DNA of 64,000 nt. It comes from Nocardioides sp. BP30. Its GTDB lineage: Bacteria > Actinomycetota > Actinomycetes > Propionibacteriales > Nocardioidaceae. Made by a program: the position numbers and the translations under genes. Every line of letters starts with the position of its first letter. Position 1 is the first letter of the stretch. Shown in pieces: positions 37,845 through 61,404 of the stretch. The notes below the pieces were generated by a model. The model was not told the origin of the DNA and ran no database searches. It was given only the letters and a program-made list of their open reading frames with translations. The DNA is taken from NCBI RefSeq assembly GCF_029873215.1, contig NZ_CP123620.1, positions 3,162,001-3,226,000 of the forward strand, written 5' to 3'.

Positions 37845-38000
37845 AGGCCGGTCTTCGGACTCACCCGGTCCCACTCATCGAGTGGGCCGGACTCACCGCA
37901 GCGGGCCTGTGCCGGAATCTCACCGGCTTCCCAGATTCTCCCCGCCGGTCTTCGCCACCGTTTCCGAAGGCTGGGCCGTAGGGGCACCTCGTGCCGGGCC
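37845..38000 (-). ncRNA. Cobalamin riboswitch leading the ChlID-cobD operon
   Basis: On the minus strand the aptamer reads GGGAAGCCGGTGAGATTCCG, then GGCCCGCTGCGGTGAGTCCG, an extra stem (CCCACTCGATGAGTGGG) and the 3' segment GTCCGAAGACCGGCC. It lies about 45 bases before the ChlID ATG and is divergent from cobL. Confidence 0.93.
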
Positions 38001-43884: not shown

Positions 43885-44060
43885 AGGGCCAGCAGGTCTT
43901 CGGACTCGGGATCATCCGGCACGGAGCGCCTTCCCGGCCGGGCCTCTCGACCCGATCAGTGGCATGCTGCCCCGCCCGTCACCCTCACCGCTGCGCGTCA
44001 GTCCCGGAGTCGCACCGGGTTCCCTGACTCCACGAGGTGGAGCACGACTGGCGGCCCGAG
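43885..44060 (-). ncRNA. Cobalamin riboswitch leading cobG-bluB
   Basis: On the minus strand: GGAGTCAGGGAACCCGGTGC then GACTCCGGGACTGACGCGCAGC, GGTGAGGGTGACGGGCGG, and a 3' CGAGTCCGAAGACCTGCTGG box. The aptamer ends about 70 bases before the chosen cobG GTG. The apparent coding frame through this stretch is discarded. Confidence 0.92.
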
Positions 44061-48798: not shown

Positions 48799-48975
48799 AT
48801 GTACTTCACCGACCGCGGCATCGAGGAGCTCGTCAACCGGCGCGGCGACGACGAGGTCACGCTCGCCTGGCTCGCCGAGCAACTGCAGGCCTTCGTGGAC
48901 ATCCATCCGGAGTTCGAGACGCCGATCGAGCGCTTCGCTACCTGGCTGGCGCGTCTGGACGACCCCGAGGACTAG
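48799..48975 (+). CDS. Small actinobacterial protein (DUF6104-like)
   Basis: A 58-residue acidic protein starting MYFTDRGIEELVNRRGDDEV and ending ARLDDPED. It matches my recollection of the conserved actinobacterial DUF6104 family, whose function is unknown. There is no signal or membrane segment. The stop TAG is followed one base later by the 22-bp repeat array. Confidence 0.8.
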   Translation: MYFTDRGIEELVNRRGDDEVTLAWLAEQLQAFVDIHPEFETPIERFATWLARLDDPED

Positions 48976-48976: not shown

Positions 48977-49076
48977 CGAGGCGTCACCTTCCGTGGGTCG
49001 AGGCGTCACCTTCCGCGGGTCGAGGCGTCACCTTCCGCGGGTCGAGGCGTCACCTTCCGCGGGTCGAGGCGTCACA
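48977..49076 (+). repeat. 22-bp intergenic repeat array, locus 1 (four and a half units)
   Basis: Four head-to-tail units at 48977, 48999, 49021 and 49043, plus a partial unit from 49065. The first differs by one base and the next three are identical. The pattern is CGA-N3-GTCA-N6-GCGGGT. The array fills the gap between two convergent genes; the GTCA of the final partial unit supplies the stop codon of the minus-strand gene at 49072. Confidence 0.95.
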
Positions 49077-49296
49077 TCGTGTCGTCGTCCGGGTCGGCAC
49101 CGTCCTCGGCGGCCCGTCGCGCCGACTCACGCAGCTCGAACAGCTCGGTGGCCAGACCGCCGACCGAGGCGGCCACGTCCTTGACCGCCCCGGTCACGAT
49201 GCCGGTGACCTCCCCGACGGTCGAGGCCATCGCCTCGACGGCACCCTGGAGGACGTCCTTGCGGATCTCGAGCTTGCTCAGGCGCGGAGTCGTCAC
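49072..49296 (-). CDS. Small conserved hypothetical protein
   Basis: A 74-residue protein from GTG 49296 (TTPRLSKLEIRKDVLQ...), preceded by GGAG with good spacing; an in-frame GTG 15 bases earlier is an alternative. A charged N-terminus leads into an Ala/Val/Gly-rich stretch (about 20-50) that could be an amphipathic helix, then an acidic tail ending DDDTM. No family is recognised. Its stop codon lies in the repeat array. The gene directly upstream is the desaturase (gap 23 bases). Confidence 0.72.
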   Translation of the reverse strand: MTTPRLSKLEIRKDVLQGAVEAMASTVGEVTGIVTGAVKDVAASVGGLATELFELRESARRAAEDGADPDDDTM

Positions 49297-49319
49297 CTCT
49301 CCAGTCTCCACGTTCTGAC

Positions 49320-50423
49320 TCAGGCCGCCACCGCGCCGTCCGGGACCCGGTCCGGGGCGGTGTCCTTGCGACGCCCCGGTCGACCCGGGAGGGCGAGCTT
49401 GAGGATCTTGCCGAAGACGCCGCCGAGCTGGCGGTGCAGCGGGCCGGTGTTGTACGGCAGGTCGTACTTCTCGCAGATCCGGCGTACCTCCTCGGCGATC
49501 TCCGGGTAGCGACGCGCCGGGATGTCCGGGAAGAGATGGTGCTCGATCTGATGGCTCAGGTTGCCGCTCATCACGTGGAAGAGACGGCTGCCGGTGATGT
49601 TGGCCGAGCCGAGCAGCTGCCGGTAGTACCACTGCCCGCGGCTCTCGTCCTCGGTCTCCTCGATGGAGAACGTCGCGACGCCGGTCGGGAAATGGCCGCA
49701 GAAGATGATGTTGAAGGCCCAGATGTTGCGCACGAGGTTGGCCGTCGCGTTGCCGGCGAGCGTGAGCGGGAACAGCGGACCGGTGAGCGCCGGGAACAGC
49801 AGGTAGTCCTTGAGCGCCTGTCGCCTGACCTTGCGCATGATGCCGCGGTGCAGCGGCTTGTTGTCCTCGAACGTACGGCGGCCTGCGACCAGGTTCTCCA
49901 CCTCGAGGTCGTGCAGAGCCACGCCCCACTCGAAGAAGATCATCAGCAGGAAGGCGTACAGCGGGTTCCCCAGGTAGTAGGGATGCCACGGCTGGTCCTC
50001 GTCCATCCGCAGGACGCCGTAGCCGATGTCGCGGTCCTTGCCGAGGATGTTGGTGAAGGTGTGGTGGATGTAGTTGTGCGAGTACTTCCACTGGTCGCTG
50101 GGGCAGACGTTGTCCCACTCATACATCCGGGAGTTGAGCCCGGGATCGCCCATCCAGTCGTACTGGCCGTGCATCACGTTGTGGCCGATCTCCATGTTGT
50201 CGAGGATCTTCGACACCGAGAGGGCGGCGACGGCCGCCGGCCACAGCGGCGGCAGGTAGAACATCGAGCGACCGGCGACCTCGAAGCCGCGCTGGTACTT
50301 CACGATCCTGCGGATGTAGTCGGCGTCGGCCTCGCCGAGGTCGGCCACGATCCGTCGCCGGATGGCGTCCATCTCGGCGCCGAACTCCTCGAGCTGCTCG
50401 GGCGTGAGCTTGATGCTGTGCAT
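49320..50423 (-). CDS. Membrane fatty acid / acyl-CoA desaturase (DesA3-like)
   Basis: A 367-residue di-iron desaturase. The three histidine boxes are intact: GHNVMHGQ (His81, His85), SHNYIHHTFTN (His116, His120, His121) and HQIEHHLFP near 305. Family members introduce a double bond into stearoyl-CoA-type chains at the membrane, as DesA3 of M. tuberculosis does with its NADPH oxidoreductase Rv3230c. The reductase gene just upstream is that partner. The two should form one electron-transfer unit and one operon. Confidence 0.94.
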   Translation of the reverse strand: MHSIKLTPEQLEEFGAEMDAIRRRIVADLGEADADYIRRIVKYQRGFEVAGRSMFYLPPLWPAAVAALSVSKILDNMEIGHNVMHGQYDWMGDPGLNSRMYEWDNVCPSDQWKYSHNYIHHTFTNILGKDRDIGYGVLRMDEDQPWHPYYLGNPLYAFLLMIFFEWGVALHDLEVENLVAGRRTFEDNKPLHRGIMRKVRRQALKDYLLFPALTGPLFPLTLAGNATANLVRNIWAFNIIFCGHFPTGVATFSIEETEDESRGQWYYRQLLGSANITGSRLFHVMSGNLSHQIEHHLFPDIPARRYPEIAEEVRRICEKYDLPYNTGPLHRQLGGVFGKILKLALPGRPGRRKDTAPDRVPDGAVAA

Positions 50424-50472
50424 GGTTCCTCAGTCATCCTTCTTCGCACGGCAAGGTGCGGAAGTAGTGGTC

Positions 50473-51558
50473 TCAGAGATCGATCGCGCAGTCGCCCTCG
50501 GGCGAGCTCACGCAGATCCGGATCTCCTCGTCGGGACGGTCGGAGGTCTCACCGGTCAGCACGTTGCGGACCTTCCCCTCCGTCTTGGTCGCTGTGCAGC
50601 TGAAGCAGATGCCCATCCGGCAGCCGAAGGTCGGGCTCAGACCGGCCGCCTCGGCCTGCTCGAGGATGCTCTGCCCGGAGTTGTCGGCGACGACCCCGGA
50701 TCTGTCGAACGCGAGCCGGCCGCCGGCGAGACCGCTGGTCCTCGGTGGCTTGAAGTACTCCACCCGGAGCCGGTCGTTCGGCACGCCGTCCACCTCGTAC
50801 GCCGGACGCACCGCCTCCACCAGACCCGCGGGTCCGCACAGCCAGGTGTCGACCTCGCGGAAGTGGGGCACGATCCGCTCCAGCTCCATCGGGGAGAAGT
50901 TGCGACCGCCCTGCTCGGGGTAGACCAGGTGCAGGTCCACGCCGTACCCGGTGGTGCCGATCTCCTCGAGCTCGGCGCGGAAGATCTGGTGCTCCGCGGA
51001 GCGGGTGTAGTGCAGGAAGGTGACCCGGCCGCGGTGGGTGCGCAGCAGCAGGCTGCGCAGCATCGCCATCGCCGGCGTGATGCCGGAGCCGCCGGTGATG
51101 AACAGGACGTGCTCGGGGACCGCGTCGGGCAGGACGAAGTCACCAGCCGCCTGGGACAGGTGCACGACCTGCCCGACCGCGGCCTGATCGACCAGGTAGC
51201 GCGAGACCTCGCCGTCGGGGTTGGCACGCATCGTGACGCTGAAGCGCTCGCCGGGACGCGAGCCGGCGCTGGAGAGCGTGAAGCACCGGGTGAGCCGGCG
51301 GGCGCCCGGCAGGTCCACGGCGAGCTGCACGTACTGCCCGGGACGGTGACCGCGCCAGGTGCTGGTCGGCTGGAACGTCAGGGTCGCGACCGCCGGCTCG
51401 CCGGGGACGTCGACCTCGCGACGGATCTCGACCAGGCGGGCCCGCACCTCGTGCGCAGCCCACATCGGGTTGACGAGCTCGAGGTAGCGGTCGATCCCGT
51501 GCGGCGAGGCAAGGGCGGCGACGGCCCGTGATCTCAGCAGGGTGCCGGCGATGCTCAT
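50473..51558 (-). CDS. Ferredoxin-domain oxidoreductase, electron donor to desaturase (Rv3230c-like)
   Basis: A 361-residue reductase with an FAD-binding barrel (RPGQYVQLAVDLPGARRLTRCFTLSS region near 80-100), an NAD(P) domain (LFITGGSGITPAMAMLRSLL near 160) and a C-terminal plant-type [2Fe-2S] domain (CRMGICFSCT near 315 and a final Cys near 352). It should pass NADPH electrons to the adjacent desaturase. The ATG at 51558 follows GAGGAGG. A dyad matching the one before tetR lies 19-36 bases upstream of the start. Confidence 0.93.
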   Translation of the reverse strand: MSIAGTLLRSRAVAALASPHGIDRYLELVNPMWAAHEVRARLVEIRREVDVPGEPAVATLTFQPTSTWRGHRPGQYVQLAVDLPGARRLTRCFTLSSAGSRPGERFSVTMRANPDGEVSRYLVDQAAVGQVVHLSQAAGDFVLPDAVPEHVLFITGGSGITPAMAMLRSLLLRTHRGRVTFLHYTRSAEHQIFRAELEEIGTTGYGVDLHLVYPEQGGRNFSPMELERIVPHFREVDTWLCGPAGLVEAVRPAYEVDGVPNDRLRVEYFKPPRTSGLAGGRLAFDRSGVVADNSGQSILEQAEAAGLSPTFGCRMGICFSCTATKTEGKVRNVLTGETSDRPDEEIRICVSSPEGDCAIDL

Positions 51559-51576
51559 CGGAACCTCCTCGCTTTC

Positions 51577-51594
51577 GGTGAACATGCGTACACC
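51577..51594. promoter_or_regulatory. Operator-like dyad A upstream of the desaturase reductase
   Basis: GGTGAACATGCGTACACC (plus strand) has GGTG...CACC ends and, read on the minus strand, contains GTACGCATGTTCAC. It shares the pattern GTGyACGCATGTkCAC with dyad B 79 bases away, on the other side of the intergenic gap. Confidence 0.65.
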
Positions 51595-51653
51595 GAAACT
51601 ATCGCAAGCGCGGACGCGGCAAGGCAAGGGCAGAAAAGGTGAGGCGGGCCACT

Positions 51654-51675
51654 CGAGTGCACGCATGTGCACTCG
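51654..51675. promoter_or_regulatory. Operator-like dyad B upstream of the FabR-like regulator
   Basis: CGAGTGCA-CGCATG-TGCACTCG has perfect 8-base arms. Its core matches dyad A at 51577-51594. It ends 27 bases before the regulator GTG. The size fits a TetR-family operator and E. coli FabR sites have a related layout. Confidence 0.68.
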
Positions 51676-51702
51676 ATGACGCGCACCCACTAGGCTGGAT
51701 CG

Positions 51703-52323
51703 GTGAGCGAGACCCGTGCCGAACAGAAGGAGCGCACCCGCCGGGCGATCCTCGACGCGGCGCTGGAGCTCACCGCGGAGACGGGGCTCGCCGGGCTCTC
51801 CCTGCGAGGTGTGGCCAAGCGGGTCGGCATCGTGCCCACCGCCTTCTACAGGCACTTCGACTCCATCGACGCGCTGGGGCTCGCGCTGGTCGAGGAGTCC
51901 CTGGTCTCGCTGCGGGCGATGCTGCGCGCGGTCCGTCAGCCCGAGGCGCTCGACAGCCTCGTCGGCGTCGCCGACGCCTCCGTCGACGTCCTGGTCGAGC
52001 ACGTGCACGCCCAGCGGGCGCACTTCGCATTCCTCGCCCGGGAGCGCGGCGCGGGCCCGGCGACCGTCCGGGAGGCGATCCGGCGCGAGATCGAGCTGTG
52101 CGAGCACGAGCTGGCCACCGACCTCGCCCGCCTCACCGATGCCGGCACCTGGTCGGCGCGCGACCTTCGCGCCGTCTCAGGGCTGATCGTGATGCTGATG
52201 GTCGCCGGCACCGAGGAGCTCCTGGCCGCCCGCCGCGAGCAGGAGGCGGCGGTGGCGGAGACGACCCGGACCCGGCTGCGGATGGTGCTCATCGGTGTGC
52301 TGCACTGGCAGTCGCGCGCCTGA
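51703..52323 (+). CDS. TetR-family regulator, FabR-like
   Basis: A 206-residue regulator starting at GTG. The helix-turn-helix (LSLRGVAKRVGIVPTAFYRHFDSIDALGLAL, residues about 33-63) is close to FabR of E. coli, including APTxFYRHF-type spacing, and the ligand domain keeps RGAGPATVREAIRREIE. FabR represses unsaturated fatty acid genes. Divergence from a desaturase reductase and desaturase makes control of membrane unsaturation the likely role. Confidence 0.9.
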   Translation: MSETRAEQKERTRRAILDAALELTAETGLAGLSLRGVAKRVGIVPTAFYRHFDSIDALGLALVEESLVSLRAMLRAVRQPEALDSLVGVADASVDVLVEHVHAQRAHFAFLARERGAGPATVREAIRREIELCEHELATDLARLTDAGTWSARDLRAVSGLIVMLMVAGTEELLAARREQEAAVAETTRTRLRMVLIGVLHWQSRA

Positions 52324-52327
52324 CCGT

Positions 52328-52371
52328 CGAGCCGTCAGTTTCCGCGGGTCGAAGCGTCAGTTTCCGGGGCG
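52328..52371 (+). repeat. 22-bp intergenic repeat, locus 2 (two units)
   Basis: A unit at 52328-52349 and a more diverged unit at 52350-52371 follow the tetR stop by 4 bases. They keep CGA-N3-GTCA and GCGGGT (second copy degraded) but have GTTTCC in the variable part. The GTCA of the second unit supplies the stop codon of the convergent SDR gene (52357-52359). Confidence 0.88.
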
Positions 52372-53031
52372 GATCGAGATCTCCGGCACCGTCGCGTCCC
52401 GCGGCAGTTCGATCGCGCCGAGGACGGCGTCAGCGACGGTCTCGGGCCTGATCCACCTGCCCTCGTCGTACTCCTTGCCCTCCTGGGCGTGCACCTTCTC
52501 CTGCATCGCCGTCGCGGTCCGGCCCGGGAAGACCGAGGTGACCCGGATCAGCGGCTCCTCCTCGCGCAGGGCGTCGGCGAGGGCGCGCAGGCCGAACTTC
52601 GAGGCCGCGTACGCCGCCCACGCGGGGTTGGCGCGCAGGCCGGACCCGCTGTTGACGAGCACGACCGTGCCCCGCGCCGCGCGCAGCCGCGGAAGCAGCG
52701 CACGGGTCAGCAGGGCCGGGGCGACCAGGTTGACGGCCAACTGGTCCTGCCAGGCGGAGGCGCTCAGCTCGGCGACGGGGCCGAGCTCCACGACGCCGGC
52801 AGCGTGCACGGCACTGTCGAGACTCTCGGGCCATCGCTCCGCCTCGCCGATCGCTTCGAGCGTCTGCGCGTCGGCGAGATCGGCCAGCACCTCGACGCAG
52901 CCCTCCGGGGCGCGACCGCGGGTGCGGACCACCGCCCACACCCGATCGCCGCGCGCGAGCAGGCGCTCGGCGACGACCCGTCCGATGCCGGAGCCGGCGC
53001 CGGTGACCAGATGGTTCGATGGACCGGTCAT
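52357..53031 (-). CDS. Short-chain dehydrogenase/reductase
   Basis: A 224-residue classical SDR: cofactor motif VTGAGSGIG at residues 9-17, a HAAGVVELGP segment in place of NNAG near 77-86, VNSGSG with the catalytic serine near 127, and YAASK near 140. The C-terminal part is short and the substrate is not predictable. Its ATG overlaps the stop of the quinone-oxidoreductase-like gene (ATGA), so the two are co-translated. Confidence 0.9.
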   Translation of the reverse strand: MTGPSNHLVTGAGSGIGRVVAERLLARGDRVWAVVRTRGRAPEGCVEVLADLADAQTLEAIGEAERWPESLDSAVHAAGVVELGPVAELSASAWQDQLAVNLVAPALLTRALLPRLRAARGTVVLVNSGSGLRANPAWAAYAASKFGLRALADALREEEPLIRVTSVFPGRTATAMQEKVHAQEGKEYDEGRWIRPETVADAVLGAIELPRDATVPEISIRPGN

Positions 53032-53996
53032 CGGGTGAGCACGATCTTGCCGAACACGTCGCCCGAGGCGATCGCCTCGAAGCCCTCGCGCGCCCGTTCC
53101 ATCGGCAGCACCCGGTCGATCAGCGGCTTGGTGCCTGTCGCATCGAGCAGCGAGACCAGCGAGGCGAGCTCGGTGCTGGTGCCCATCGTCGAGCCGATGA
53201 CCCGCAGCTGCAGGAAGAAGATGTGCGTGAGCATCGCGTTGTCGACGTCGGGGCCCGACGTCGTACCGCTGATCACCAGCGCACCGCCCGGTCGCAGCGA
53301 GCGGATCGAGTGCTCCCAGGTCGCCCGGCCGACCGTCTCCATGACCGCGTCCACCTTCGCCGGCAGCCGTTCGCCGGAGGCGAACACCTCGTGCGCGCCG
53401 ATCTCGAGGGCGCGGGCGCGCTTGGCCTCGTCGCGCGAGGTCGCCCAGACCCGCAGCCCGGCGGCGCGCGCCAGCGTGATCAGCGCCGTGGCGACGCCGC
53501 CACCGGCACCCTGCACGAGCACCGAGTCGCCGGCCTTGAGGCCGCCTTGGGTGAAGAGCATCCGATAGGCGGTCAACCACGCCGTCGGCAGGCAGGCCGC
53601 CTCCTCGAAGGAGTAGCCCTCCGGCAGCGCGATGGCGTTGCGCCGCGGCACCACCACCTTCGCGGCGAAGGTGCCCTGGTGCAGCTCGGAGAGCAGCGAC
53701 CGCCGGGGATCGAGCGTCTCGTCGCCGACCCAGTCGGGGTCGCTGATGACGGCGTGCACCACCACCGGACGGCCGTCGGCGTCGATCCCGGCGGCGTCGC
53801 AGCCCAGGATCATCGGCAGCCGGTCCTGCTTCAGCCCCTGGCCCTTGAGCGACCACAGGTCGTGATGGTTGAGGCTGGCGGCCTTGACCGTCACGGTCGT
53901 CCAGCCGTCGGGGGCGACCGGATCGGGGCGCTCCCCCACCACCAGGCCGCTCAGCGGGTCCTCACGGCTGATCTTCTCGGCGTAGACGGCGAACAT
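53028..53996 (-). CDS. Zinc-less MDR-family (quinone oxidoreductase-like) dehydrogenase
   Basis: A 322-residue medium-chain reductase. LNHHDLWSLKGQGL near residue 43 and the cofactor segment VLVQGAGGGVATALITLARAAG near 157 are typical. The structural and catalytic zinc cysteines of alcohol dehydrogenases are missing, so it is quinone-oxidoreductase-like. The ATG at 53996 is preferred over a GTG 9 bases earlier. It is paired with the SDR; the substrate is unknown. Confidence 0.88.
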   Translation of the reverse strand: MFAVYAEKISREDPLSGLVVGERPDPVAPDGWTTVTVKAASLNHHDLWSLKGQGLKQDRLPMILGCDAAGIDADGRPVVVHAVISDPDWVGDETLDPRRSLLSELHQGTFAAKVVVPRRNAIALPEGYSFEEAACLPTAWLTAYRMLFTQGGLKAGDSVLVQGAGGGVATALITLARAAGLRVWATSRDEAKRARALEIGAHEVFASGERLPAKVDAVMETVGRATWEHSIRSLRPGGALVISGTTSGPDVDNAMLTHIFFLQLRVIGSTMGTSTELASLVSLLDATGTKPLIDRVLPMERAREGFEAIASGDVFGKIVLTR

Positions 53997-54016
53997 GCTC
54001 ACCAACCTAACAAGGT

Positions 54017-54140
54017 CGAAAGGTCACAAACGGCGGGTCGAGAGGTCAGGTACGGCGGGTCGAGTGGTCACCCCACCCGCGAGACCTGACCAGTCGACCC
54101 GCGAAAGGTGACGTCTCGACGCGCAGAAGGTGACGTCTCG
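54017..54140. repeat. 22-bp intergenic repeat, locus 3: two facing arrays
   Basis: Two plus-oriented units (54017-54038, 54039-54060) and a partial one (54061-54074) meet three minus-oriented units (54075-54096, 54097-54118, 54119-54140). Each complete unit is exactly 22 bases and fits CGA-N3-GTCA-N6-GCGGGT with small changes. The array fills the gap between the malic enzyme stop (2 bases away) and the MDR start region. Confidence 0.93.
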
Positions 54141-54142
54141 GC

Positions 54143-55318
54143 TCAACGACGGGCGACACCGTCGCGGCGCGCCGCATCGGCGACAGCCGCCGCGACCGCC
54201 GGCCCGACCCGGGGGTCGAACGGTGCCGGGATGATGTAGTCCTCCGTCAGCGCGTCGCCAACCAGGTCGGCAAGCGCCCGCGCCGCGGCCAGCTTCATGC
54301 CCTCGGTGATCGCGCTCGCCCGCGCGTCGAAGGCGCCGCGGAAGATGCCGGGGAACGCCAGCACGTTGTTGATCTGGTTGGGGAAGTCCGAGCGCCCCGT
54401 GGCGACCACCCGCGCGTGCTGGTGGGCCAGGTCGGGGTGGATCTCGGGGTCGGGGTTTGCCATCGCGAAGATGATCGCGTCGGAGGCCATCGAGGCGACG
54501 ATCGCGGGCTCCACCGAACCGCCGGAGACGCCGATGTAGACGTCGGCACCGGCCATCACGGCCGCCAGGTCGCCGCGGCGACCGGTCCGGTCGGCCGTCA
54601 GCGCCGCCAGCGCGCGCTTCGAGGGCGTGAGGTCCTCGCGTGAGCCGTGCAGCACGCCCTTGCGGTCGAGTACGGCGAGATCCTGCACGCCGTACTCCAA
54701 CAGGATCTTGGCGACCGCCACCCCCGCGGCCCCCGCGCCCGAGATCACCACCCGGGTCGACCCCGGCGAGCGCCCGGTCAGCCTCAGCGCGTTCTCCAGC
54801 GCCGCCAGGGTCACGACGGCGGTGCCGTGCTGGTCGTCGTGGAAGACCGGGATGTCGAGGCGCTCCTTGAGCCGGTCCTCGATCTCGAAGCAGCGCGGCG
54901 CGGAGATGTCCTCCAGGTTGATGCCGCCGAAGCTCGGTGCCATCGCGGCGACCGTGGCGACGATCTCGTCCACGTCGGTGGTGTCCAGGCAGATCGGGAT
55001 GGCGTCGACGCCGCCGAACTCCTTGAACAGCACCGCCTTGCCCTCCATCACCGGCATCGCCGCCGTGGGACCGATGTCCCCCAGGCCCAGCACGGCGGTG
55101 CCGTCGGTGACGACAGCGACGGTGTTGGGGATCCAGGTGTAGGTCTCGGCCAGCTCGGGGGCCTCGGCGATCGCGGTGCAGACCCGGGCCACGCCCGGGG
55201 TGTAGGCCTTGGACAGCGCCTCGCGGTCGTTGACGGAGGCGGTGGCGACGATCGCCATCTTGCCGCCGACGTGCAGGTCGAAGACGGGGTCGCCGGCGAA
55301 GGGTCGGGTATCAGTCAT
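54143..55318 (-). CDS. NAD(P)-dependent malic enzyme
   Basis: Oxidatively decarboxylates malate to pyruvate. The 391 residues match the short bacterial form. The catalytic Tyr-Pro region [14 protein letters not shown] is near residue 33, the metal-site segment [17 protein letters not shown] near 138 with [13 protein letters not shown] near 160, and the Rossmann motif [17 protein letters not shown] near 192. The cofactor preference cannot be called. Confidence 0.94.
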
Positions 55319-55497
55319 GGGAGCGCAGCTTCTCGAATCTCGGGCGGGCGGAAAGGCGTCGCGCGAAGGGTCGAGCGCGGAACAGTCGCTGCCGAGAGGG
55401 TCGCCCCCGGTCCGCGTCAGTCTGGCACAGCCGTGCCGACCGCTGCAGCACCGTCCCGCGATGGCCTACGTCACATCCGGTCTCGCTCCGGCGGTGG

Positions 55498-55890
55498 TCA
55501 GAGCAGCCGTGGCCGCGGCCACAACCGGGCCAGCGGTACGGCGATGACCTCGGCGTGCCCGACCACCCCACGGTGACGCGAGTCGACCCCCTCCGCGGCG
55601 TTGTCGCTGAGCAGCCACCAGCCCGGCTCGCCGGTGCGGGTCTGGCGCTCCTCGGCGGCCCGCTTGACGGCGATCGTGCCGTCGGCGAAGCGAGCGACGA
55701 CGAGCCCGCCGACCGCCGGCGGCCGCCGGTAGGAGACCAGCAGGAGGTCGCCGGCACGCAGGGTGGGCTGCATCGAGGCTCCGACCACCCTGGCCAGGCC
55801 CAGAGCCGGACGGGCGGCACGGCCCGGTCGGGCCGGTCGGGCGGGTCGGGCGGGTCGAGGAGTGGGTACCCGTGGAGAGCGCTGCGACAC
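55498..55890 (-). CDS. sodX: Nickel-SOD maturation protease SodX (S26-like)
   Basis: A signal-peptidase-like protease that should cleave the SodN leader to free its N-terminal His. The Ser of VVGASMQPTLRAGDLLLVSY and the Lys of GTIAVKRAA form the catalytic pair. No membrane anchor is seen, as usual for SodX. The GTG at 55890 (130 residues) is chosen because longer frames overlap sodN, but no good ribosome site is visible; an ATG at 55944 is possible. A Pro-Ala-Arg repeat marks the N-terminus. Divergence from sodN supports the call. Confidence 0.85.
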   Translation of the reverse strand: MSQRSPRVPTPRPARPARPARPGRAARPALGLARVVGASMQPTLRAGDLLLVSYRRPPAVGGLVVARFADGTIAVKRAAEERQTRTGEPGWWLLSDNAAEGVDSRHRGVVGHAEVIAVPLARLWPRPRLL

Positions 55891-55906
55891 GCGAGTAGTG
55901 TCGCAG
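55882..55906. promoter_or_regulatory. Perfect 9-bp inverted repeat between sodX and sodN
   Basis: CTGCGACAC-N7-GTGTCGCAG is a perfect dyad 37 bases before the sodN ATG, where a promoter is expected. It could be the operator of a nickel or redox regulator. It does not match the Streptomyces Nur box as I remember it. One arm contains the chosen sodX GTG. Confidence 0.6.
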
Positions 55907-55942
55907 TCAGGACGATCCGTTCGACGACGAAAGAGGACCCGC

Positions 55943-56344
55943 ATGTTTGCGCGCATGTTCGCCCCCACGCTCGAGGTCTCGGCCCACTGCGACCTGCCGT
56001 GTGGCGTCTACGACCCGGCCCAGGCCCGCATCGAGGCCGAGTCGATCAAGGCCATCATCGCCAAGGTCGCCGACAGCGACGACCCCGACTTCCGCACCCG
56101 CGCGGTGATCATCAAGGAGCAGCGCTCCGAGCTGGTCAAGCACCACCTGTGGGTGCTGTGGACCGACTACTTCAAGGCCCCGCACTTCGAGAAGTACCCC
56201 CAGCTGCACACCCTCTTCAACGAGGCCACCAAGCTGGCCGGCGCCTCCGGCACCAAGGGCACCCTCGACGGCGAGGTCGCCGACCAGCTGCTCGCGAAGA
56301 TCGACGAGATCGCCGAGATCTTCTGGGAGACCAAGAAGGCCTGA
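55943..56344 (+). CDS. sodN: Nickel superoxide dismutase
   Basis: Dismutates superoxide. The 133-residue precursor has a 14-residue leader (MFARMFAPTLEVSA) followed by the nickel hook HCDLPCGVYDPAQ, in which the new N-terminal His and Cys2/Cys6 bind nickel after SodX cleavage. The helical bundle core (RTRAVIIKEQRSELVKHHLW) is complete. GAGGA precedes the ATG. Nickel may come through the HoxN-type permease elsewhere in the window. Confidence 0.96.
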   Translation: MFARMFAPTLEVSAHCDLPCGVYDPAQARIEAESIKAIIAKVADSDDPDFRTRAVIIKEQRSELVKHHLWVLWTDYFKAPHFEKYPQLHTLFNEATKLAGASGTKGTLDGEVADQLLAKIDEIAEIFWETKKA

Positions 56345-56380
56345 GCGCCTGTCCCGGGTCGCCGACCTGGACAACCTCTC

Positions 56381-56447
56381 ACTCGACGCCGCCTCGAGCC
56401 CGCACGGAGTCCCACCGGGACCCAGTGGGCCGAGAGCGGCGTCGAGT
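56381..56447 (+). other. Long stem-loop after sodN
   Basis: ACTCGACGCCGC (56381-56392) and GCGGCGTCGAGT (56436-56447) form a perfect 12-bp stem enclosing 43 bases with a second hairpin (CCCAC/GTGGG). It starts 36 bases past the sodN stop. It may be a terminator or a processed 3' RNA. No U-tract is seen. Confidence 0.55.
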
Positions 56448-56529
56448 TCGTTCCGGGTCCGGCGCTCCCCGCGCACGTCCGTCCGATCGCCAGGTTTCGT
56501 CAAGGAAGCTGCGGGGCAGGCTGGCGGGT

Positions 56530-56880
56530 GTGAGTATCCGAGCACGCGGCGTTCTCGCCGCCCTGGTCCTGCCCGCCACCCTGACCGTCACCCTGAGCGC
56601 CTGCGGCAGCGGCAGCTCCTCGAACGACCGGCCCACCACCGCCGAGATCTCGAAGTCCCTGCAGAGCGGCAAGGCGGCCGAGCTCCTCGGCAGTACCAGC
56701 GCCATCTCCACCCAGGCGGCCGACTGCCTCGCCACCGCGCTGCACGACTCGAAGCTGTCGAACAAGACCCTCCAGGCCTTCGTCGACGGGGACAAGAACT
56801 ACAAGGGCTCCAAGGCCGACGAGTCGGCACTGGACGACGTCGGCACGAAGGTCACCAGCTGCCTCAGCACTGCCCAGTGA
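56530..56880 (+). CDS. Small lipoprotein of unknown function
   Basis: A 116-residue protein from GTG 56530. The hydrophobic signal (GVLAALVLPATLTVTLSAC) ends in a lipobox with the Cys of LSAC, then a Ser/Gly linker and a helical domain with two cysteines (ADCLATAL and TSCLSTAQ) that may pair. I do not recognise a family, and the neighbours give no clear hint. Confidence 0.75.
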   Translation: MSIRARGVLAALVLPATLTVTLSACGSGSSSNDRPTTAEISKSLQSGKAAELLGSTSAISTQAADCLATALHDSKLSNKTLQAFVDGDKNYKGSKADESALDDVGTKVTSCLSTAQ

Positions 56881-56933
56881 CCATCGCGCCGCGGGAGGTG
56901 TGGCGACCGCGGCGATAGGGAAGGATGGCCGCC

Positions 56934-57332
56934 ATGTCCCACCCCTCACGTCGCGCCGACGTCGAGCTGCGGCTGCCCGCCGACTCGGCCTACGTCTCGG
57001 TGCTCCGCACCGCCAGCGCCGGCCTGGCGGCGCGCCTCGACTTCACCCTCGACGACATCGAGGACCTGCGGATGGCCGTGGGCGAGGCCAGCGCCCTCGT
57101 GCTCGAGGCAGCCGATGTCGACACCGACCTGACGGCCGCGTTCTGGCTCGAACAGCGCGCCATCACCCTGCGGGTCTCCGCGCCGGGCACCACGCCGGAG
57201 CTCGCCGCCGAGGAGGACTTCGCCTGGCAGGTCCTCACCACGCTGGCCACCGAGGCCTCGGTCACCAGCACCGAGGGCACGTTCGCCATCACCCTGCTGC
57301 TCAGCGCCGCGCCGCTGGAGACCGGCGTCTGA
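56934..57332 (+). CDS. Anti-sigma factor, RsbW/HATPase-like
   Basis: A 132-residue protein with the serine-kinase anti-sigma fold: VELRLPADSAYVSVLRTASAGLAARLDFTLDDIEDLRMAVGEA. The N-box asparagine usual in RsbW kinases is not evident (EASALVLEA), so kinase activity is uncertain. The ATG at 56934 has AAGG at good spacing. Its stop is one base before the sigma factor ATG, so the two are translated together and it should bind that sigma factor. Confidence 0.88.
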   Translation: MSHPSRRADVELRLPADSAYVSVLRTASAGLAARLDFTLDDIEDLRMAVGEASALVLEAADVDTDLTAAFWLEQRAITLRVSAPGTTPELAAEEDFAWQVLTTLATEASVTSTEGTFAITLLLSAAPLETGV

Positions 57333-57333
57333 G

Positions 57334-58149
57334 ATGTCCACCGACTCGTCTCGGGACGACGACATCGCCGACGTCCCCCGCAATGCGGCCGTCGAGGAGA
57401 CCCGGCGCCGCAGCGCCGAGCTCTTCACGGTCCTGCACGGTGGTGGCTCGGTGGCCGAGCAGCAGGAGGCCCGCGACCAGCTGATCGGCCTGCACCTGCC
57501 GCTGGTCGAGCATTGCGCGCGTCGCTTCCGCAACCGCGGGGAACCACACGAGGACCTCGTCCAGGTGGGCACCATCGGCCTGCTCAAGGCGGTCGACCGC
57601 TTCGATGCCGAACGGGGCGTGGAGTTCTCGACGTACGCCACGCCCACGGTCATCGGGGAGATCAAGCGGCACTTCCGTGACAAGGGCTGGGCGATCCGGG
57701 TGCCGCGCCGCCTGCAGGAGCTGCGCCTCCAGATCGGCAGCATCAGCGGCGAGCTCACCCAGTCACTGGGCCGCTCGCCGACTCCGCGCGAGCTGGCCGA
57801 GCGGATCGGCTGCACCGTCGAGGAGATCGTCGAGGGACTGGAGTCGGGCAACGCCTACACCACGCTCTCGCTCGACGCCGGGGAGGACGGCGAGGACGGC
57901 GGTTCGGCGACGATGCTCGACGCGATCGGTGCCGAGGACGAGCACCTGGAGCATGTCGAGATCCGCGAGTCGATCAAGCCGCTCCTGGACGCGCTGGACG
58001 CCCGTGAGAAGAAGATCCTCATGTTGCGCTTCTTCCGCAACATGACGCAGTCGCAGATCGCCGAGGAGGTCGGCATCTCGCAGATGCACGTCTCCCGGCT
58101 GCTCAACCGCACCCTGCTGCACCTGCGGACAGCGCTCGACCAGGACTGA
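57334..58149 (+). CDS. SigB/SigF-family sigma factor
   Basis: A 271-residue group 3 sigma factor. Region 2 (EDLVQVGTIGLLKAVDRFDAERG then FSTYATPTVIGEIKRHFRD) spans about 70-120, region 3 about 128-200, and region 4 with its helix-turn-helix (MTQSQIAEEVGISQMHVSRLLNRTL) about 235-265. Such factors drive general stress, osmotic or developmental responses and are held by an RsbW-like anti-sigma factor, encoded directly upstream. No anti-anti-sigma gene is adjacent. Confidence 0.92.
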   Translation: MSTDSSRDDDIADVPRNAAVEETRRRSAELFTVLHGGGSVAEQQEARDQLIGLHLPLVEHCARRFRNRGEPHEDLVQVGTIGLLKAVDRFDAERGVEFSTYATPTVIGEIKRHFRDKGWAIRVPRRLQELRLQIGSISGELTQSLGRSPTPRELAERIGCTVEEIVEGLESGNAYTTLSLDAGEDGEDGGSATMLDAIGAEDEHLEHVEIRESIKPLLDALDAREKKILMLRFFRNMTQSQIAEEVGISQMHVSRLLNRTLLHLRTALDQD

Positions 58150-58171
58150 TCCGCCTCGGAGCCGGACGGGC

Positions 58172-58531
58172 TCAGTGCACCTCGTCGACGGAGAGCGCCT
58201 CGAGGCTGGCCGGGTGCAGCACGCATGCCAGCGTGACGAGTGCGACGACGCCGAGCACGATCGCGACAGCGACGTTGGAATGTCGCGAGTCCCACGCGAG
58301 CCCCAGCGTGATCAGCTGCGTCAGCACGATCGGGGCGCGCGACCACGAGCGCAGCCGCCACAGGCCCACGGCGCACACCCCGAGGGCGGCGGCGTAGGCC
58401 AGGAAGAAGATCGCTGTGGTGACCGACATCGTCGACACGTTCACCAGGACGAGCACCGCCCACACGGCCAGGACGACGCCCTGGAGTGCGACGAGGGCAG
58501 CGGCTACAGTCAGGAAGACGGGGCGGGGCAC
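58172..58531 (-). CDS. Small integral membrane protein
   Basis: A 119-residue protein from GTG 58531 with four hydrophobic segments (about 6-30, 36-58, 65-82 and 88-108). There is no recognisable catalytic motif. It converges on the sigma factor gene. An actinobacterial integral membrane protein of unknown role. Confidence 0.75.
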   Translation of the reverse strand: MPRPVFLTVAAALVALQGVVLAVWAVLVLVNVSTMSVTTAIFFLAYAAALGVCAVGLWRLRSWSRAPIVLTQLITLGLAWDSRHSNVAVAIVLGVVALVTLACVLHPASLEALSVDEVH

Positions 58532-58564
58532 CGCGCCAGCCTACGAGTCGGGCGATCGCGGTGA

Positions 58565-58590
58565 GGAATCCCACCCCTGCAGGCCTTGTT
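58565..58590 (+). promoter_or_regulatory. SigR-like promoter motif upstream of whiB
   Basis: GGAAT (58565-58569) and GTT (58588-58590) are separated by exactly 18 bases, matching the SigR/SigH consensus GGGAAT-N18/19-GTT. It would start transcription about 115 bases before the whiB ATG. A three-base -10 element makes chance matches likely, so confidence is moderate. Confidence 0.4.
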
Positions 58591-58716
58591 TAACGCTCCA
58601 ATAGTTGGAATCCTTGGGTCTGCGCGTGTGAAGGCGTTCACACAACTACGCCCGCGCGCAGGTTCGGCACGGATCGTGCCCATCGAGACGTTGTAGGAAG
58701 TAGGGATCCCCCGGCC

Positions 58717-58971
58717 ATGGATTGGCGCCACCGTTCGGCTTGCCTCGACGAGGACCCGGAGCTGTTCTTCCCCATCGGGAACACCGGCCCCGCGATTCTT
58801 CAGATCGAGGAGGCCAAGGCCGTCTGCCGACGCTGCGACGTACGCGAGCAGTGTCTGCAGTGGGCGCTCGAGGCTGGTCAGGACCACGGGGTCTGGGGTG
58901 GCCTGTCGGAGGACGAGCGACGCGCCCTCAAGCGGCGCAACGCCCGCTCGCGGGTCCGCTCCACCGCCTGA
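58717..58971 (+). CDS. WhiB-family iron-sulphur transcription factor (WhiB1-like)
   Basis: An 84-residue Wbl protein. Cys9, Cys37, Cys40 and Cys46 bind the [4Fe-4S] cluster, GVWGG follows near residue 58, and the basic tail RRALKRRNARSR can contact DNA. Length and the neighbouring pdtaS match WhiB1, which is sensitive to nitric oxide and binds the housekeeping sigma factor in mycobacteria. The 146-base leader region is long for such a gene. Confidence 0.93.
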   Translation: MDWRHRSACLDEDPELFFPIGNTGPAILQIEEAKAVCRRCDVREQCLQWALEAGQDHGVWGGLSEDERRALKRRNARSRVRSTA

Positions 58972-58994
58972 CCGCTTCCATCACCCGGTCGCGC

Positions 58995-60485
58995 TCACTC
59001 CTCCAGCGGTACGTCGATGGCAGCGCTCGCGCCCGGTCCGCCGGCACGCGGCGCGAGGCGCAGGGTGCCCTTGAGCTCCGACTCGACCAGCGTCTTGACG
59101 ATCGAGAGTCCGAGGTTGGTGGAGCGCTCCAGGTCGAAGTCGTGGGGCAACCCGTGGCCCTGGTCCTCGACGGTGATCCGCAGTCTGCCCTGCGGCCGGC
59201 TGACGCGGACCTCGATCCGGCCGATGCCACCCTCCGGCATGCTGCCGCCACCGCCGTAGCCATGCTCCACGGCGTTCTGGAGGAGCTCGGTGACCACCAT
59301 CGCCAAGGCGGTGGCCATCTCGCTGGGCAGCGACCCGAAGGACCCGTCGCGGTGCACGCGCACCGGAGTGCCGACCGCCGAGACCTCGCTGACCATCGTG
59401 CCGAGCCGGTCGGCGATCTCGTCGAAGTCGACCCGCTCCTCGACGGCCTGCTGGCTGAGGGTCTCGTGGACCAGCGCGATGGAGCCGACGCGGCGCACGG
59501 CCTCGTCGAGGGCCGCCTTCGCGCTGGGCTCGCCGATCCGCCGTGCCTGCAGGCGCAGGAGCGCTGCCACTGTCTGCAGGTTGTTCTTCACCCGGTGGTG
59601 GATCTCGCGGATGGTGGCGTCCTTGGTGACCAGCTCCCGGTCCCGTCGACGAAGGTCGGTGACGTCACGGACGAGCACCAGGGCGCCGATGTGACGTTCC
59701 TGGGGCCGTAGCGGGATCGCGCGCACGATCAGGGAGACCCCCTGCGACTCGATCTCGGTGTCGCGATAGGCCCTGCCGCCCAGCACGGCGCTCAGCGTCT
59801 CCTCGTCCGGCCGGTCGCGGGGCGGCACCAGCTGCCGGGTCAGCTCGGCCAGCGAGCTGCCGGTCAGGTCCCCGGACAGGCCGAGCCGGCGGTAGACCGA
59901 GAGTGCGTTCGGGCTGGCGTAGTCGACGACCCCCTCGGCATCAACCCGCAGGAACCCGTCCCCCACCCGCGGCGTGTCGGCGTGGTCGCTGCGCTGCCCG
60001 GCCGAGGGGAACTGGCCGCCGGCGATCATCTGGGTCAGGTCGGCGGCGGTCTGGAGATAGGTCAGCTCCAGCCGGCTGGGGGTGCGGACGCCGAGCAGGT
60101 TGGTGTTGCGGCTGACCACGGCGATGACGCGCTGCTGGCGGCGCACCGGGATGGTCTCGACCCGGACGGGTACGTCGTCGCGCCACTCCGGGTCGCCCTC
60201 CCGCACGAGCCGGCCCTGGGTCAGCGCCTCGTCGAGCACCGGGCGGCGGCCGGTGGGCAGGAAGGTGCCCACGACGTCGTCGACGTACGCGGTGGGGCCG
60301 GTCGTCGGACGCATCTGTCCCGCCGCCCACAGGCCCTTGCCCTCGCGGTCCGGCAGCCACAGCACGAGGTCGGCGAAGGACAGGTCGGCGACGATCTGCC
60401 AATCCGCCATGAGCAGCTGCAGCCAGCTGACGTCGTCGGCATCCAGATCCGTGTGGCTGCGGGCGAGCTCGGGCAACGAGGGCAC
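58995..60485 (-). CDS. pdtaS: Histidine kinase PdtaS-like
   Basis: A 496-residue soluble sensor kinase. A GAF-like domain (about 30-160) is followed by a PAS-like domain (about 175-285) and a HisKA_2/HATPase module with the phospho-His in IREIHHRVKNNLQTVAALL near residue 305 and ATP motifs VVTELLQNAVEHGYG near 395 and EDQGHGLPHDF near 440. Its partner is normally the antiterminator response regulator PdtaR, not present here. No membrane segment is seen. Next to whiB1, as in mycobacteria. Confidence 0.92.
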   Translation of the reverse strand: MPSLPELARSHTDLDADDVSWLQLLMADWQIVADLSFADLVLWLPDREGKGLWAAGQMRPTTGPTAYVDDVVGTFLPTGRRPVLDEALTQGRLVREGDPEWRDDVPVRVETIPVRRQQRVIAVVSRNTNLLGVRTPSRLELTYLQTAADLTQMIAGGQFPSAGQRSDHADTPRVGDGFLRVDAEGVVDYASPNALSVYRRLGLSGDLTGSSLAELTRQLVPPRDRPDEETLSAVLGGRAYRDTEIESQGVSLIVRAIPLRPQERHIGALVLVRDVTDLRRRDRELVTKDATIREIHHRVKNNLQTVAALLRLQARRIGEPSAKAALDEAVRRVGSIALVHETLSQQAVEERVDFDEIADRLGTMVSEVSAVGTPVRVHRDGSFGSLPSEMATALAMVVTELLQNAVEHGYGGGGSMPEGGIGRIEVRVSRPQGRLRITVEDQGHGLPHDFDLERSTNLGLSIVKTLVESELKGTLRLAPRAGGPGASAAIDVPLEE

Positions 60486-60518
60486 GGCGCCACGATAGAT
60501 GTCTGAAACAATGGGCCC

Positions 60519-61337
60519 ATGTCCGGGTCATATTGGGAAGCCGTGCGCGAGACGGGGCTGAGTGTGCCCTCCGACCGCCCACTCGACGAGCTCACCGCCG
60601 AGCTCACCCGCATGCTCGGCGACCCCGATCCCGAGATCCGGGAGGCGTTGGCCCATCCGGCCCTGTCCACCTGGATCGCGCAGGGGGTGTACGACGACCT
60701 CCTCTCCGGGCTCGGCGACGGCATGGCCGCGGGCCTCGTGGTCGGCCTGGGCGACGCCGACTCCGACAGCGTCTTCCGTCGCAGCTACTCGGCCCTGGTG
60801 CTCGGTGCCTGCATCGCGCGCGACAACGAACGCCCGCTCGTCCCCGGTGGCAAGGTGCTCGAGTGGGGCGATCGGGTCGCCACCTGGCTGCTGCGCGAGC
60901 GTGACCTGCGCGGGTTCGTGGTGGGCAAGGGCTGGGCCCATGCCGTGGCACACGGTGCCGACGCCCTGGCCACGCTGGCGTCCTCCCCGCACGTGGCCAC
61001 GCCCGAGCTCACCGTGATCCTGGACGTGGTGGCCGACCGGGTGCTGGCGCCGGTCGCCGCGGCGTACGGGCAGGGTGAGCCGGATCGGCTCGCGCGCGCC
61101 ACCATGGCCGTGCTGCGGCGCGACCTCGTGCCGCTCACCGTGGTCGAGCCGTGGGTCGCTCGGATCGGCGCCTCGACCGCCGTCCCGGCGCCGGACGCCG
61201 GCAACGCCGAGGCGTTCCTGCGCGCGCTCTACCTCCAGCTCGCGCTCGGCCCGCACCCGCCCGAGGTGCGGGCCGACCTGCTGCTCACCCTGGTGGAGGT
61301 GCTCCGCCGCCGCAACGCCGACCTGCGCCGCCGCTGA
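60519..61337 (+). CDS. DUF2785 family protein
   Basis: A 272-residue, largely helical protein. The conserved stretches GVYDDLLSGLGDGMAAGL near residue 55, LVPGGKVLEWGDRVATWLLRERDLRGFV near 108 and GKGWAHAVAHGADALATLA near 137 match DUF2785 as I recall it. The function is unknown. There is no signal peptide or membrane segment. It diverges from pdtaS. Confidence 0.82.
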   Translation: MSGSYWEAVRETGLSVPSDRPLDELTAELTRMLGDPDPEIREALAHPALSTWIAQGVYDDLLSGLGDGMAAGLVVGLGDADSDSVFRRSYSALVLGACIARDNERPLVPGGKVLEWGDRVATWLLRERDLRGFVVGKGWAHAVAHGADALATLASSPHVATPELTVILDVVADRVLAPVAAAYGQGEPDRLARATMAVLRRDLVPLTVVEPWVARIGASTAVPAPDAGNAEAFLRALYLQLALGPHPPEVRADLLLTLVEVLRRRNADLRRR

Positions 61338-61375
61338 TCCCGGGCAGGCGCCGGTTCGTCTGGTCGCATCGTGGC

Positions 61376-61404
61376 CACTCGACCCGCGATGGGTGACGCC
61401 TCGG
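61376..61404 (-). repeat. 22-bp intergenic repeat, locus 4 (single unit)
   Basis: One minus-oriented unit at 61382-61403, with GTCGAGTGG from a following unit's start, lies between the convergent DUF2785 and bL37 genes. On its strand it keeps CGA-N3-GTCA-N6-GCGGGT exactly. Confidence 0.88.

Follow-up and report, generated by a model that had tools for sequence, protein, structure and literature searches.

Why should short repeats, stepped at exactly 22 bp, gather where genes end in the chromosome of a Nocardioides, a genus of soil bacteria? The question arises from a 64-kb stretch of DNA (the window, meaning the whole stretch analysed), for which a sequence-only reading had described such units at four intergenic loci and had offered three guesses as to their nature: a mobile element, part of a terminator or attenuator, or a protein-binding site. 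To our knowledge, the way transcription ends between convergent genes in high-GC actinobacteria, which have few U-tract terminators, is poorly understood, and a fixed geometry with drifting words is a testable handle on actinobacterial transcription ends. The repeats would represent one of two things: a new system of termination or insulation whose reader co-evolves with it, or a new kind of selfish repeat that lodges at stop codons with no RAYT involved. Both outcomes would alter the annotation of intergenic repeats in these genomes.

Repeat arrays in the window

Scanning the window with a matrix, at a threshold of at least 8 bits, gave 11 units, all within the four array loci, as the sequence-only reading had claimed; with two mismatches allowed there were 14 matches against a shuffle mean of 6.0, and 14 was reached in 1 of 100 shuffles. 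Direct reading of all four loci likewise bore out the exact 22-bp step (Table 1). The array at 48977 begins 1 nt past the TAG (ending at 48975) of the 48799-48975 gene, that at 52328 begins 4 nt past the TGA ending at 52323, and the 54075..54140 half-array has its outer end 2 nt away from the TGA that closes the malic enzyme gene on the minus strand. These stop codons, and the facing TGA codons at 49072 and 52357, are as originally described, and the new gene calls again make three of the four gaps convergent. Adjacency to gene ends had been claimed for every locus and holds at three; the stops on either side of the unit at 61382..61403 are 44 and 57 nt away, and this unit is hence not stop-adjacent. 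The two copies reported at 52328-52371 proved to be one full unit and a second that keeps its first half only. A six-base middle shared within each locus was not found at 54017-54140, where the middles are CAAACG, GGTACG, GGTCTC, CCTTTC and CCTTCT; genome-wide, adjacent tandem units are nonetheless more alike than permuted ones, agreeing at 6.20 of 9 variable positions versus 5.17 (35 pairs; p printed as 0.00000 with 20000 permutations).

Table 1. Repeat arrays and neighbouring genes in the window
Feature	Position	Strand	Description
Solo tandem array	48977..49074	+	Four 22-bp units, at 48977, 48999, 49021 and 49043
Terminal core of this array	49065-49074	+	CGAGGCGTCA; gives TGA of facing gene at 49072
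Array	52328..52359	+	One full unit (52328-52349) and a second core
Second core of this array	52350-52359	+	CGAAGCGTCA; gives TGA of facing gene at 52357
Left half of inward-facing pair	54017..54070	+	Two units, then core CGAGTGGTCA (54061-54070)
Right half of inward-facing pair	54075..54140	-	Three units
Single unit	61382..61403	-	Degenerate inner core TGGCCACTCG at 61372-61381
DUF6104 gene	48799..48975	+	Host gene, 58 aa; ends 1 nt before first array
Facing gene	49072..49296	-	74 aa, no Pfam match; stop within array
TetR-type regulator gene	51703..52323	+	Host gene
Short-chain dehydrogenase gene	52357..53031	-	Facing gene; stop codon from array
Zinc-type alcohol dehydrogenase gene	53028..53996	-	Downstream of paired array, co-directional gap
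Malic enzyme gene	54143..55318	-	Host gene, 391 aa

Arrays across the source genome

The source genome (G000, 4.28 Mb) contains 72 exact units and none of the reversed-pattern control; with weaker units counted, its retrieved regions hold 54 arrays, equivalent to 77 half-arrays. A same-sense stop codon lies upstream of 62 of the 77 half-arrays and is lacking for 15, and 49 of the 62 are tight on the stop, with 45 starting 1-8 nt past it and 4 using the TGA of their first unit. Of the 77, 8 extend more than 10 nt into a predicted gene. Among the 50 array-bearing gaps, 32 are convergent and 16 co-directional; the convergent baseline, taken from other genomes, is 121 of 721 gene pairs. Because any array in a convergent gap necessarily shares its sense with one or the other flanking gene, we discarded orientation by itself as evidence and regard only distance to the stop as informative. 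By this measure, solo convergent arrays have their outer end within 7 nt of the stop of their own gene in 14 of 15 cases, and their inner end within 7 nt of a stop in 6 of 15 (four at 7 nt, two overlapping). Same-strand units are spaced by 22 in 35 of 36 instances. All 23 opposed arrays face inward. The unit CGAGACGTCACCTTTCGCGGGT is not palindromic, and inverted repeats arise only from opposed arrays. Stop abutment, gene-end placement, preference for convergent gaps and scarcity within genes are seen throughout the genome and also in other genomes. The outcomes that had been named in advance as fatal to a functional interpretation, such as random placement or absence from other strains, were thus not what we found.

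Two further readings were rejected in the course of this analysis. One was a repeated coding peptide, as the 22-bp step shifts the frame with each unit. The other was a cargo transposon with arrays as its ends: the genes enclosed between separated inward arrays (five proteins scanned) gave a weak AAA match, a PemK-like match, the release factor acVLRF1 and weak MTES_1575/AbiEi matches, and their diversity leads us to read them as ordinary neighbours.

Distribution and retention among relatives

Among the 341 Nocardioidaceae genomes, 42 contain the core GTYGA-N3-GTCA at a 22-bp step, 13 of them with at least five matches. Strains rich in arrays include Nocardioides sp. J54, N. nematodiphilus and N. 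dokdonensis. Its distribution in the genus is patchy, the strict pattern being present in 4 of 215 genomes, and families A and B of the arrays, as searched, are missing from most of the 215 scanned Nocardioides. Core spacings in G149 and G352, the loci of the latter preselected for a 22-bp pair, are 22 in 171 of 183 cases and 44 in 8. Family B is a sister family with another core and a fixed 31-bp step, in which six positions beyond the search pattern carry 1.75-2.00 bits and positions 19-27 only 0.09-0.91. The combination of conserved core, fixed step and more variable spacer is clear in family B, and is recognised in family A by step and core; part of the family-A spacer is conserved within a genome (GGC in J54). 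Spacers are largely common within a genome and different between genomes, among the matches listed; the architecture stays constant while the sequence differs. Starts 1-8 nt past a stop were seen in just 11 of 24 same-sense arrays of family B, and starts within 8 nt in just 2 of 22 arrays of J54. Among ten other Nocardioides sampled, six have arrays at 22 or 32 bp, four of these being known carriers. A position-blind survey of periods 20-40 gave 22 or 32 in 14 of 17 intergenic rows versus 2 of 74 genic rows, from genomes that were not drawn at random and with rows within one genome sharing descent; the four known carriers supply 11 of the 14, and the remaining six genomes give 3 of 5. The array families may be related to one another, and with shared descent their periods cannot be counted as independent origins.

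Arrays are retained at common gene ends. For 17 of 37 half-arrays of G148 (11 loci) and 9 of 22 of G119, the matching host gene of G000 also has an array, and the unit sequences of these retained arrays show no orthologous likeness between species. At the end of the malic enzyme gene, G000 and G148 have family A, and G001, G015, G061 and G217 the family-B repeat, whereas G119 has no array. As siblings may lack an array, at this gene in G119 and at era in J54, no single array site is essential. Plain stem-loops were seen by eye at the same gene ends in some relatives. Unit likeness is greater within than between genomes in G148 and in G119, but is 5.38 within G000 against 5.62 between G000 and G148, and as such the description of one word per genome fits the first two and not clearly the third. 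Some copying must occur, given this within-genome likeness and that of tandem neighbours.

RNA structure, DNA topology and mobility as explanations

The arrays might act at the RNA level: a long hairpin just past the stop codon could terminate transcription with no need of a U-tract, shield the 3' end of the mRNA or delay the ribosome as it terminates. Post-stop RNA at paired loci has a median z of -7.0 relative to shuffles (94% of 33 below -2), with 47-pair stems at L240 (z -17.2) and L101 (z -12.0) and a z of -5.18 for the window pair at 54017..54140, while array-free gene ends have medians of -0.2 and -0.4 (17% and 13% below -2); printed examples of family B also place opposed cores 4 nt apart, in keeping with such a hairpin. 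Solo arrays, however, have a median z of only -1.2 (43% of 28 below -2), and at none of the other three window loci is folding better than in shuffles (z -0.62, -0.22 and 1.33). The excess over permutation is equally large for facing arms and for tandem neighbours, although the latter have no such way of pairing, and copying alone could produce this equal homogenisation. Opposed arms at family-B locus L249 differ by eye in their spacers with the core fixed, and runs of at least four T are present at just 3-4% of array ends, so that the arrays lack the intrinsic-terminator layout of a G+C-rich hairpin followed by a U-tract. A hairpin as the sole function was set aside because 57% of solo ends fold no better than z -2, and an RNA-level element of any of these kinds appears distinctly unlikely to us. 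A known structured RNA family was rejected, Rfam giving no match at gathering score at the arrays of five sources (the window, L094, L101, L197 and L240). An alternative at the level of DNA topology, as proposed for BIMEs, is that gyrase or a nucleoid protein binds the arrays where positive supercoils accumulate under convergent transcription. The strong convergent bias and the phased sites are in agreement with this, as is the enrichment of positive supercoiling signal between convergent genes reported by a GapR study (PMC8360656). Abutment of individual stops and the arrays in co-directional gaps are left unexplained, and we consider a topological role very improbable.

The main rival is a REP-like element without host function, selfish and non-autonomous, which would propagate its own copies and survive only where it is least harmful, in gaps after stops that are mostly convergent. 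Convergent gaps require no promoter, and the genome-specific spacers among the matches listed, the within-genome likeness of units in G148 and G119, the patchy occurrence in the genus and the malic enzyme gap occupied in G148 and empty in G119 are all consistent with such a repeat. No mobilising enzyme of the RAYT kind was found, however: PF01797 (Y1/RAYT transposase) gave no hit in G000 at E 0.001 and a hit in 1 of 215 genus genomes, in a search that was positive in 5 of 14 control genomes, and mobilisation of the REP/RAYT type was therefore rejected. Searches limited to the family of the window array turned up neither a phage match nor any viral contig bearing three phased cores; the single plasmid match, partial and 44 bp long, was to a plasmid of an archaeon. 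A phage or plasmid origin was rejected for that family. Tolerance in a safe haven would by itself explain neither outer ends 1-8 nt from a stop nor a fixed 22-bp register over diverged units, and retention at the 11 loci common with G148 is high for useless DNA. We regard a selfish repeat as a serious possibility, although on balance a rather doubtful one.

Proposed role of the arrays

The reading that we prefer, tentatively and with less than even confidence, is that the arrays are punctuation at gene ends, consisting of phased sites for a putative factor that stops or insulates transcription. Each site is a short core (GTYGA-N3-GTCA in G000) repeated every 22 bp, or every 31 or 32 bp in sister families, and steps of about two or three helical turns would place a sequence-specific bound factor roughly on one face of the DNA. 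At 10.5 bp per turn, 22 bp is not exactly two turns, which counts against this reading. An array typically starts at or a few bases past a stop codon and reads in the sense of that gene, with two arrays often opposed and facing one another between convergent genes. Bound arrays may then stop transcription from entering the neighbouring gene or insulate against it, probably assisted at paired loci by the long transcript hairpin. Anatomy, register, placement, inward orientation, a constant architecture over sequence that differs between lineages and retention at shared gene ends are direct observations; we infer that a factor exists, that it binds DNA and not RNA, and that it affects transcription. 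Constant spacing and placement, with letters that differ between lineages, suggest an undescribed marking of gene ends. Among the three original guesses, the evidence favours a phased array of the binding type, that is, sequence-specific and evenly phased recognition rather than a plain hairpin terminator, and speaks against REP/RAYT-type mobility. A fuller claim, that these are gene-end marks of the Nocardioidaceae whose fast-evolving, phased, lineage-specific cores at stops are read by a co-evolving factor that blocks RNA polymerase, is in our estimate unlikely.

Comparison with known systems

No account of these repeats was found in the open-licence literature, mostly at the level of titles and the openings of abstracts. 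REP and BIME repeats are described as dispersed, mostly extragenic, abundant, clustered with inverted partners and species-specific, with GTAG-type REP heads and alternating orientation in BIMEs (PMC2817692). Our arrays resemble these repeats and REPINs, which RAYT transposases mobilise, in being mostly extragenic, in many copies and with genome-specific spacers. They differ in their unit, a non-palindromic core that recurs head-to-tail every 22, 31 or 32 bp and has no GTAG-type head, and in that opposed G000 arrays only face inward and do not alternate; a PF01797 transposase is also missing from G000 and from 214 of 215 genus genomes. Mycobacterial MIRUs are similarly short intergenic actinobacterial repeats abutting coding ends; a review places their insertion at start codons, with coupling of translation (PMC12548453). 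In contrast, the arrays follow stops, mostly in convergent gaps, and shift frame with each unit.

The iterons of plasmid origins lie head-to-tail at intervals of about two helical turns and hold a protein on one DNA face; the arrays share this order and step but are chromosomal and lie at gene ends, in 50 gaps of the retrieved G000 regions. The DNA-uptake-sequence pairs of Neisseria and Haemophilus are inverted copies of a genome-specific word after genes and can act as terminators; the likeness lies in inverted pairs of a short genome-specific word at gene ends, and the difference in that uptake words are far more numerous and are not known to form phased tandem arrays. At the polymerase I terminators of eukaryotic ribosomal DNA (Sal box/TTF-I, Reb1), a protein bound to oriented, repeated sites stops RNA polymerase. 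The arrays are likewise repeated, oriented short sites downstream of genes, although their host is bacterial and their factor and stopping effect are putative. If the roadblock reading is true, bacteria would have their own version of termination at a protein roadblock, one that preserves spacing, orientation and position as the word changes between lineages, and whose step may shift by about one helical turn, from 22 to 31 or 32.

Array units in the window and along the chromosome

The sequence-only reading had described a 22-bp repeat at four places of the window and nowhere else in it. Direct reading bore out all four, with the stated coordinates and an exact step of 22 bp, and a position matrix (at least 8 bits) found 11 units, all at the four places. 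At 52328 one full unit stood, and the second copy proved to be a half only. Stop adjacency did not hold for the unit at 61382, whose flanking stops lie 44 and 57 nt away, and the six-base middle thought to be shared within a locus differs between the units at 54017-54140. In RNA folding, this pair alone was better than its shuffles (z -5.18; the other three places -0.62, -0.22 and 1.33). The same 64 kb holds three cobalamin riboswitches.

Across the single 4,278,108-bp contig of Nocardioides sp. BP30 (G000), in which the window spans 3162001-3226000, the exact pattern gave 72 matches and its reversed control none. Regions were fetched around exact-pattern and junction-pattern places, window places being read in the window, and genes were called with our own codon model, not taken from public annotation. 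With a cut-off of 13 bits they contain 54 arrays, or 77 half-arrays when split by strand; for the genome this is a lower bound, to which a relaxed pattern adds places such as 564345 and 2160420. Two strict patterns gave no site in the opening 644 kb or the final 83 kb of the contig, where the relaxed pattern, among the plus-strand sites listed, places 564345; avoidance of 648 kb by 54 arrays has p ~1e-4. One locus (L084, 1170567-1170683) carries a 95-bp tandem duplication including one unit.

A same-sense stop lies upstream of 62 of the 77 half-arrays (TGA 48, TAG 13, TAA 1), and the proposed abutment of stops extends genome-wide: 45 of the 62 start 1-8 nt past the stop, in four the first unit's own TGA is the stop (distance -3), and the remaining 13 lie at -25 (three), -7 (one) and 10 to 345 (nine). 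For the other 15 the upstream gene is opposite-sense (12) or absent (3). Scarcity inside genes was likewise borne out, with predicted-gene overlap above 10 nt in 8 of 77.

Array-bearing gaps in the fetched regions (n=50) are convergent in 32 cases, co-directional in 16 and divergent in two, against convergent baselines of 8/59 gene pairs in the window and 121/721 in 800 kb of other Nocardioides (binomial p ~1e-13). Orientation alone proves little, because any array in a convergent gap shares the direction of one flanking gene; the informative measure there is distance to the stop. Among 15 solo convergent arrays, the outer end is at most 7 nt from the stop of its own gene in 14, and the inner end comes as close to the facing gene, or overlaps it, in six. 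Opposed arrays at most 150 bp apart face inward at all 23 G000 loci, 10 of which have 26 nt between the two arrays, and same-strand units are spaced by 22 in 35/36; an exception to this anatomy, L238 of the relative G014, has overlapping cores on both strands. Facing arms agree at 5.96 of 9 variable positions (permuted 4.94, p 0.00015) and tandem neighbours at 6.20 (permuted 5.17, 35 pairs), a similar excess, so that local copying explains both.

Folding of the 100 nt past the stop, scored against shuffles, gave a median z of -7.0 at paired loci (n=33; 94% below -2), -1.2 at solo loci (n=28; 43%), -0.2 at array-free convergent ends (n=35; 17%) and -0.4 at co-directional ends without arrays (a sample of 45 from 169; 13%). 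Four or more consecutive T are present at 3-4% of array ends. At L240 of G014 (2017-2114) the facing arrays fold into a perfect stem of 47 pairs closed by a 4-nt loop (z -17.2).

Occurrence in related genomes

The strict tandem pattern of this repeat (family A) was found in 4/215 genus genomes, G000 included, and in 45 stretches of a named collection, comprising 14 single matches in other taxa and 31 from Nocardioides and MAGs (Nocardioides sp. J54, N. nematodiphilus, Nocardioides sp. Iso805N and two MAGs). A pattern in which the spacer may vary, YGAN3GTCAN10GTYGAN3GTCA, matched 42/341 family genomes in 10/26 genera (reversed control 1 match); 13 carriers have at least five matches (for example G149, which is J54, 164; G352 108; G000 62; G148 54), and another 13 have a single match that may be due to chance. 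Outside the family, 2/357 sampled class genomes gave one match each (reversed control one). Among the matches listed, the ten spacer bases vary between genomes and are largely common within one. Successive cores in 15 G149 and 20 G352 loci are spaced by 22 in 171/183 cases and by 44 in eight, a count not independent of the choice of G352 loci, which had been picked for a 22-bp pair. A same-sense stop precedes 37/48 half-arrays in G148, 22/23 in G119 and 22/28 in J54, as well as 23/31 arrays in G352 and 17/23 in G014. The J54 stops are farther off (5-158 nt), and tight abutment is thus not universal.

Host genes shared with G000, taken as reciprocal best matches of at least 50% identity among array-bearing host genes only, account for 17/37 half-arrays (11 loci) in G148 and 9/22 (6 loci) in G119; about 0.6 is expected for G148 assuming 4000 genes, half-arrays that share a locus count as dependent observations, and paralogs may account for a few matches. 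Units resemble each other at shared ends no more than they do at unshared ones (G000-G148 5.66 vs 5.62 of 9; G000-G119 4.20 vs 4.58; G119-G148 5.81 vs 5.71); array position is thus kept without sequence memory. Units are more alike within G148 (7.02, 6.47) and G119 (6.29, 6.53) and not clearly so within G000 (5.38, 4.86); by this sequence comparison, 'one word per genome' is clear for the former two and weak for G000. A 221-aa gene lies between the same two array-bearing genes at L086 (G000) and L176 (G148), where L185 (G119) has only 153 bp.

By eye, among the 30 closest orthologs, the malic enzyme end carries family A in G000 and G148, lies 9 bp from the next start in G119, and bears a different repeat, family B, in G217, G015, G001 and G061. 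Family B, GYCGAGTCGGCTCGTYCTGAC at a 31-bp step, occurs in 8/215 genus genomes (G001 72 matches; control zero); in 20 fetched loci, a same-sense stop precedes 24/30 arrays, by 1-8 nt in 11 cases. Outside its search pattern, six positions hold 1.75-2.00 bits, one holds 1.35, and three at which two letters occur hold about 1; positions 19-27 range from 0.09 to 0.91. The era end, likewise by eye in its 30 closest orthologs, has family A in G000, G148 and G119, other tandem repeats past the stop in G208, G228 and G120, a plain stem-loop in G126, G217 and G011, and no array seen in J54; the downstream gap is at most 52 nt in 13/30.

Forty 20-kb stretches at fixed coordinates in 10 genomes, not randomly drawn and including four known carriers (G228, G120, G208, G083), gave 37 intergenic tandem repeats of period at least 15, 17 of them of period 20-40. 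Periods of 22 or 32 make up 14/17 intergenic rows vs 2/74 genic rows (Fisher p 7e-12), some rows being overlapping pieces of one array; the known carriers supply 11 of the 14, and the other six genomes 3/5 (G168, G147), the rest being 21. Arrays occur in 6/10 genomes, two newly recognised as carriers, and none was seen in the surveyed stretches of G184, G066, G100 and G189. Of nine gaps whose two flanking genes are known, six are convergent. Most of the surveyed units start GYYGA-N2-C (by eye), so the families may be related.

Inward-facing arrays flank a likely nuclease gene in four genomes and, at L209 of G352 (2078-2717), an acVLRF1-type release factor gene.

Other features of the window and of fetched loci (L-numbers)
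Feature	Location	Strand	Basis
L31-Actinobacteria ribosomal protein leader	window 996-1041	-	
Cobalamin riboswitch	window 13278-13386	+	
Cobalamin riboswitch	window 37829-37969	-	
Cobalamin riboswitch	window 43888-44052	-	
Likely nuclease gene	L094 3075-3999 (G000)		Pfam MTES_1575/AbiEi_4 match below curated cut-offs
Likely nuclease gene	L226 1114-2020 (G352)		Pfam MTES_1575/AbiEi_4 match below curated cut-offs
Likely nuclease gene	L184 2157-2541 (G119)		likeness only
Likely nuclease gene	L194 2323-3244 (G149)		likeness only

Discussion

Cores that are conserved at a fixed step while spacers drift, together with placement that persists without sequence memory, suggest recognition of phased sites in trans. 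A task at gene ends is indicated by the closeness to stops, the preference for convergent gaps and the ordinary stem-loops that some relatives have at these ends. We tentatively favour the reading that the arrays are phased sites for a putative trans-acting factor which, most simply, would stop or insulate transcription at gene ends. An RNA hairpin can add to this task at paired loci, and is weak or missing at 57% of solo ends. A bolder and rather improbable form of this reading has the arrays as lineage-specific gene-end marks with a putative co-evolving factor that would block RNA polymerase. Both gene-end readings are held slightly less strongly, and the alternative that follows slightly more so, because the survey genomes were non-random and G000 lacks clear within-genome homogeneity. 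This serious, if somewhat unlikely, alternative is a selfish REP-like repeat without function, moved by an unspecified enzyme.

Iterons, Pol I terminators and uptake sequences offer comparison systems, and a literature search of partial coverage found no description of these repeats. MIRUs are said to insert at start codons (PMC12548453). REP/BIME elements have a defining transposase and a palindromic unit, both missing here (PF01797 is absent from G000 and from 214/215 genus genomes); like those elements (PMC2817692), the present arrays are abundant, extragenic, clustered and species-specific.
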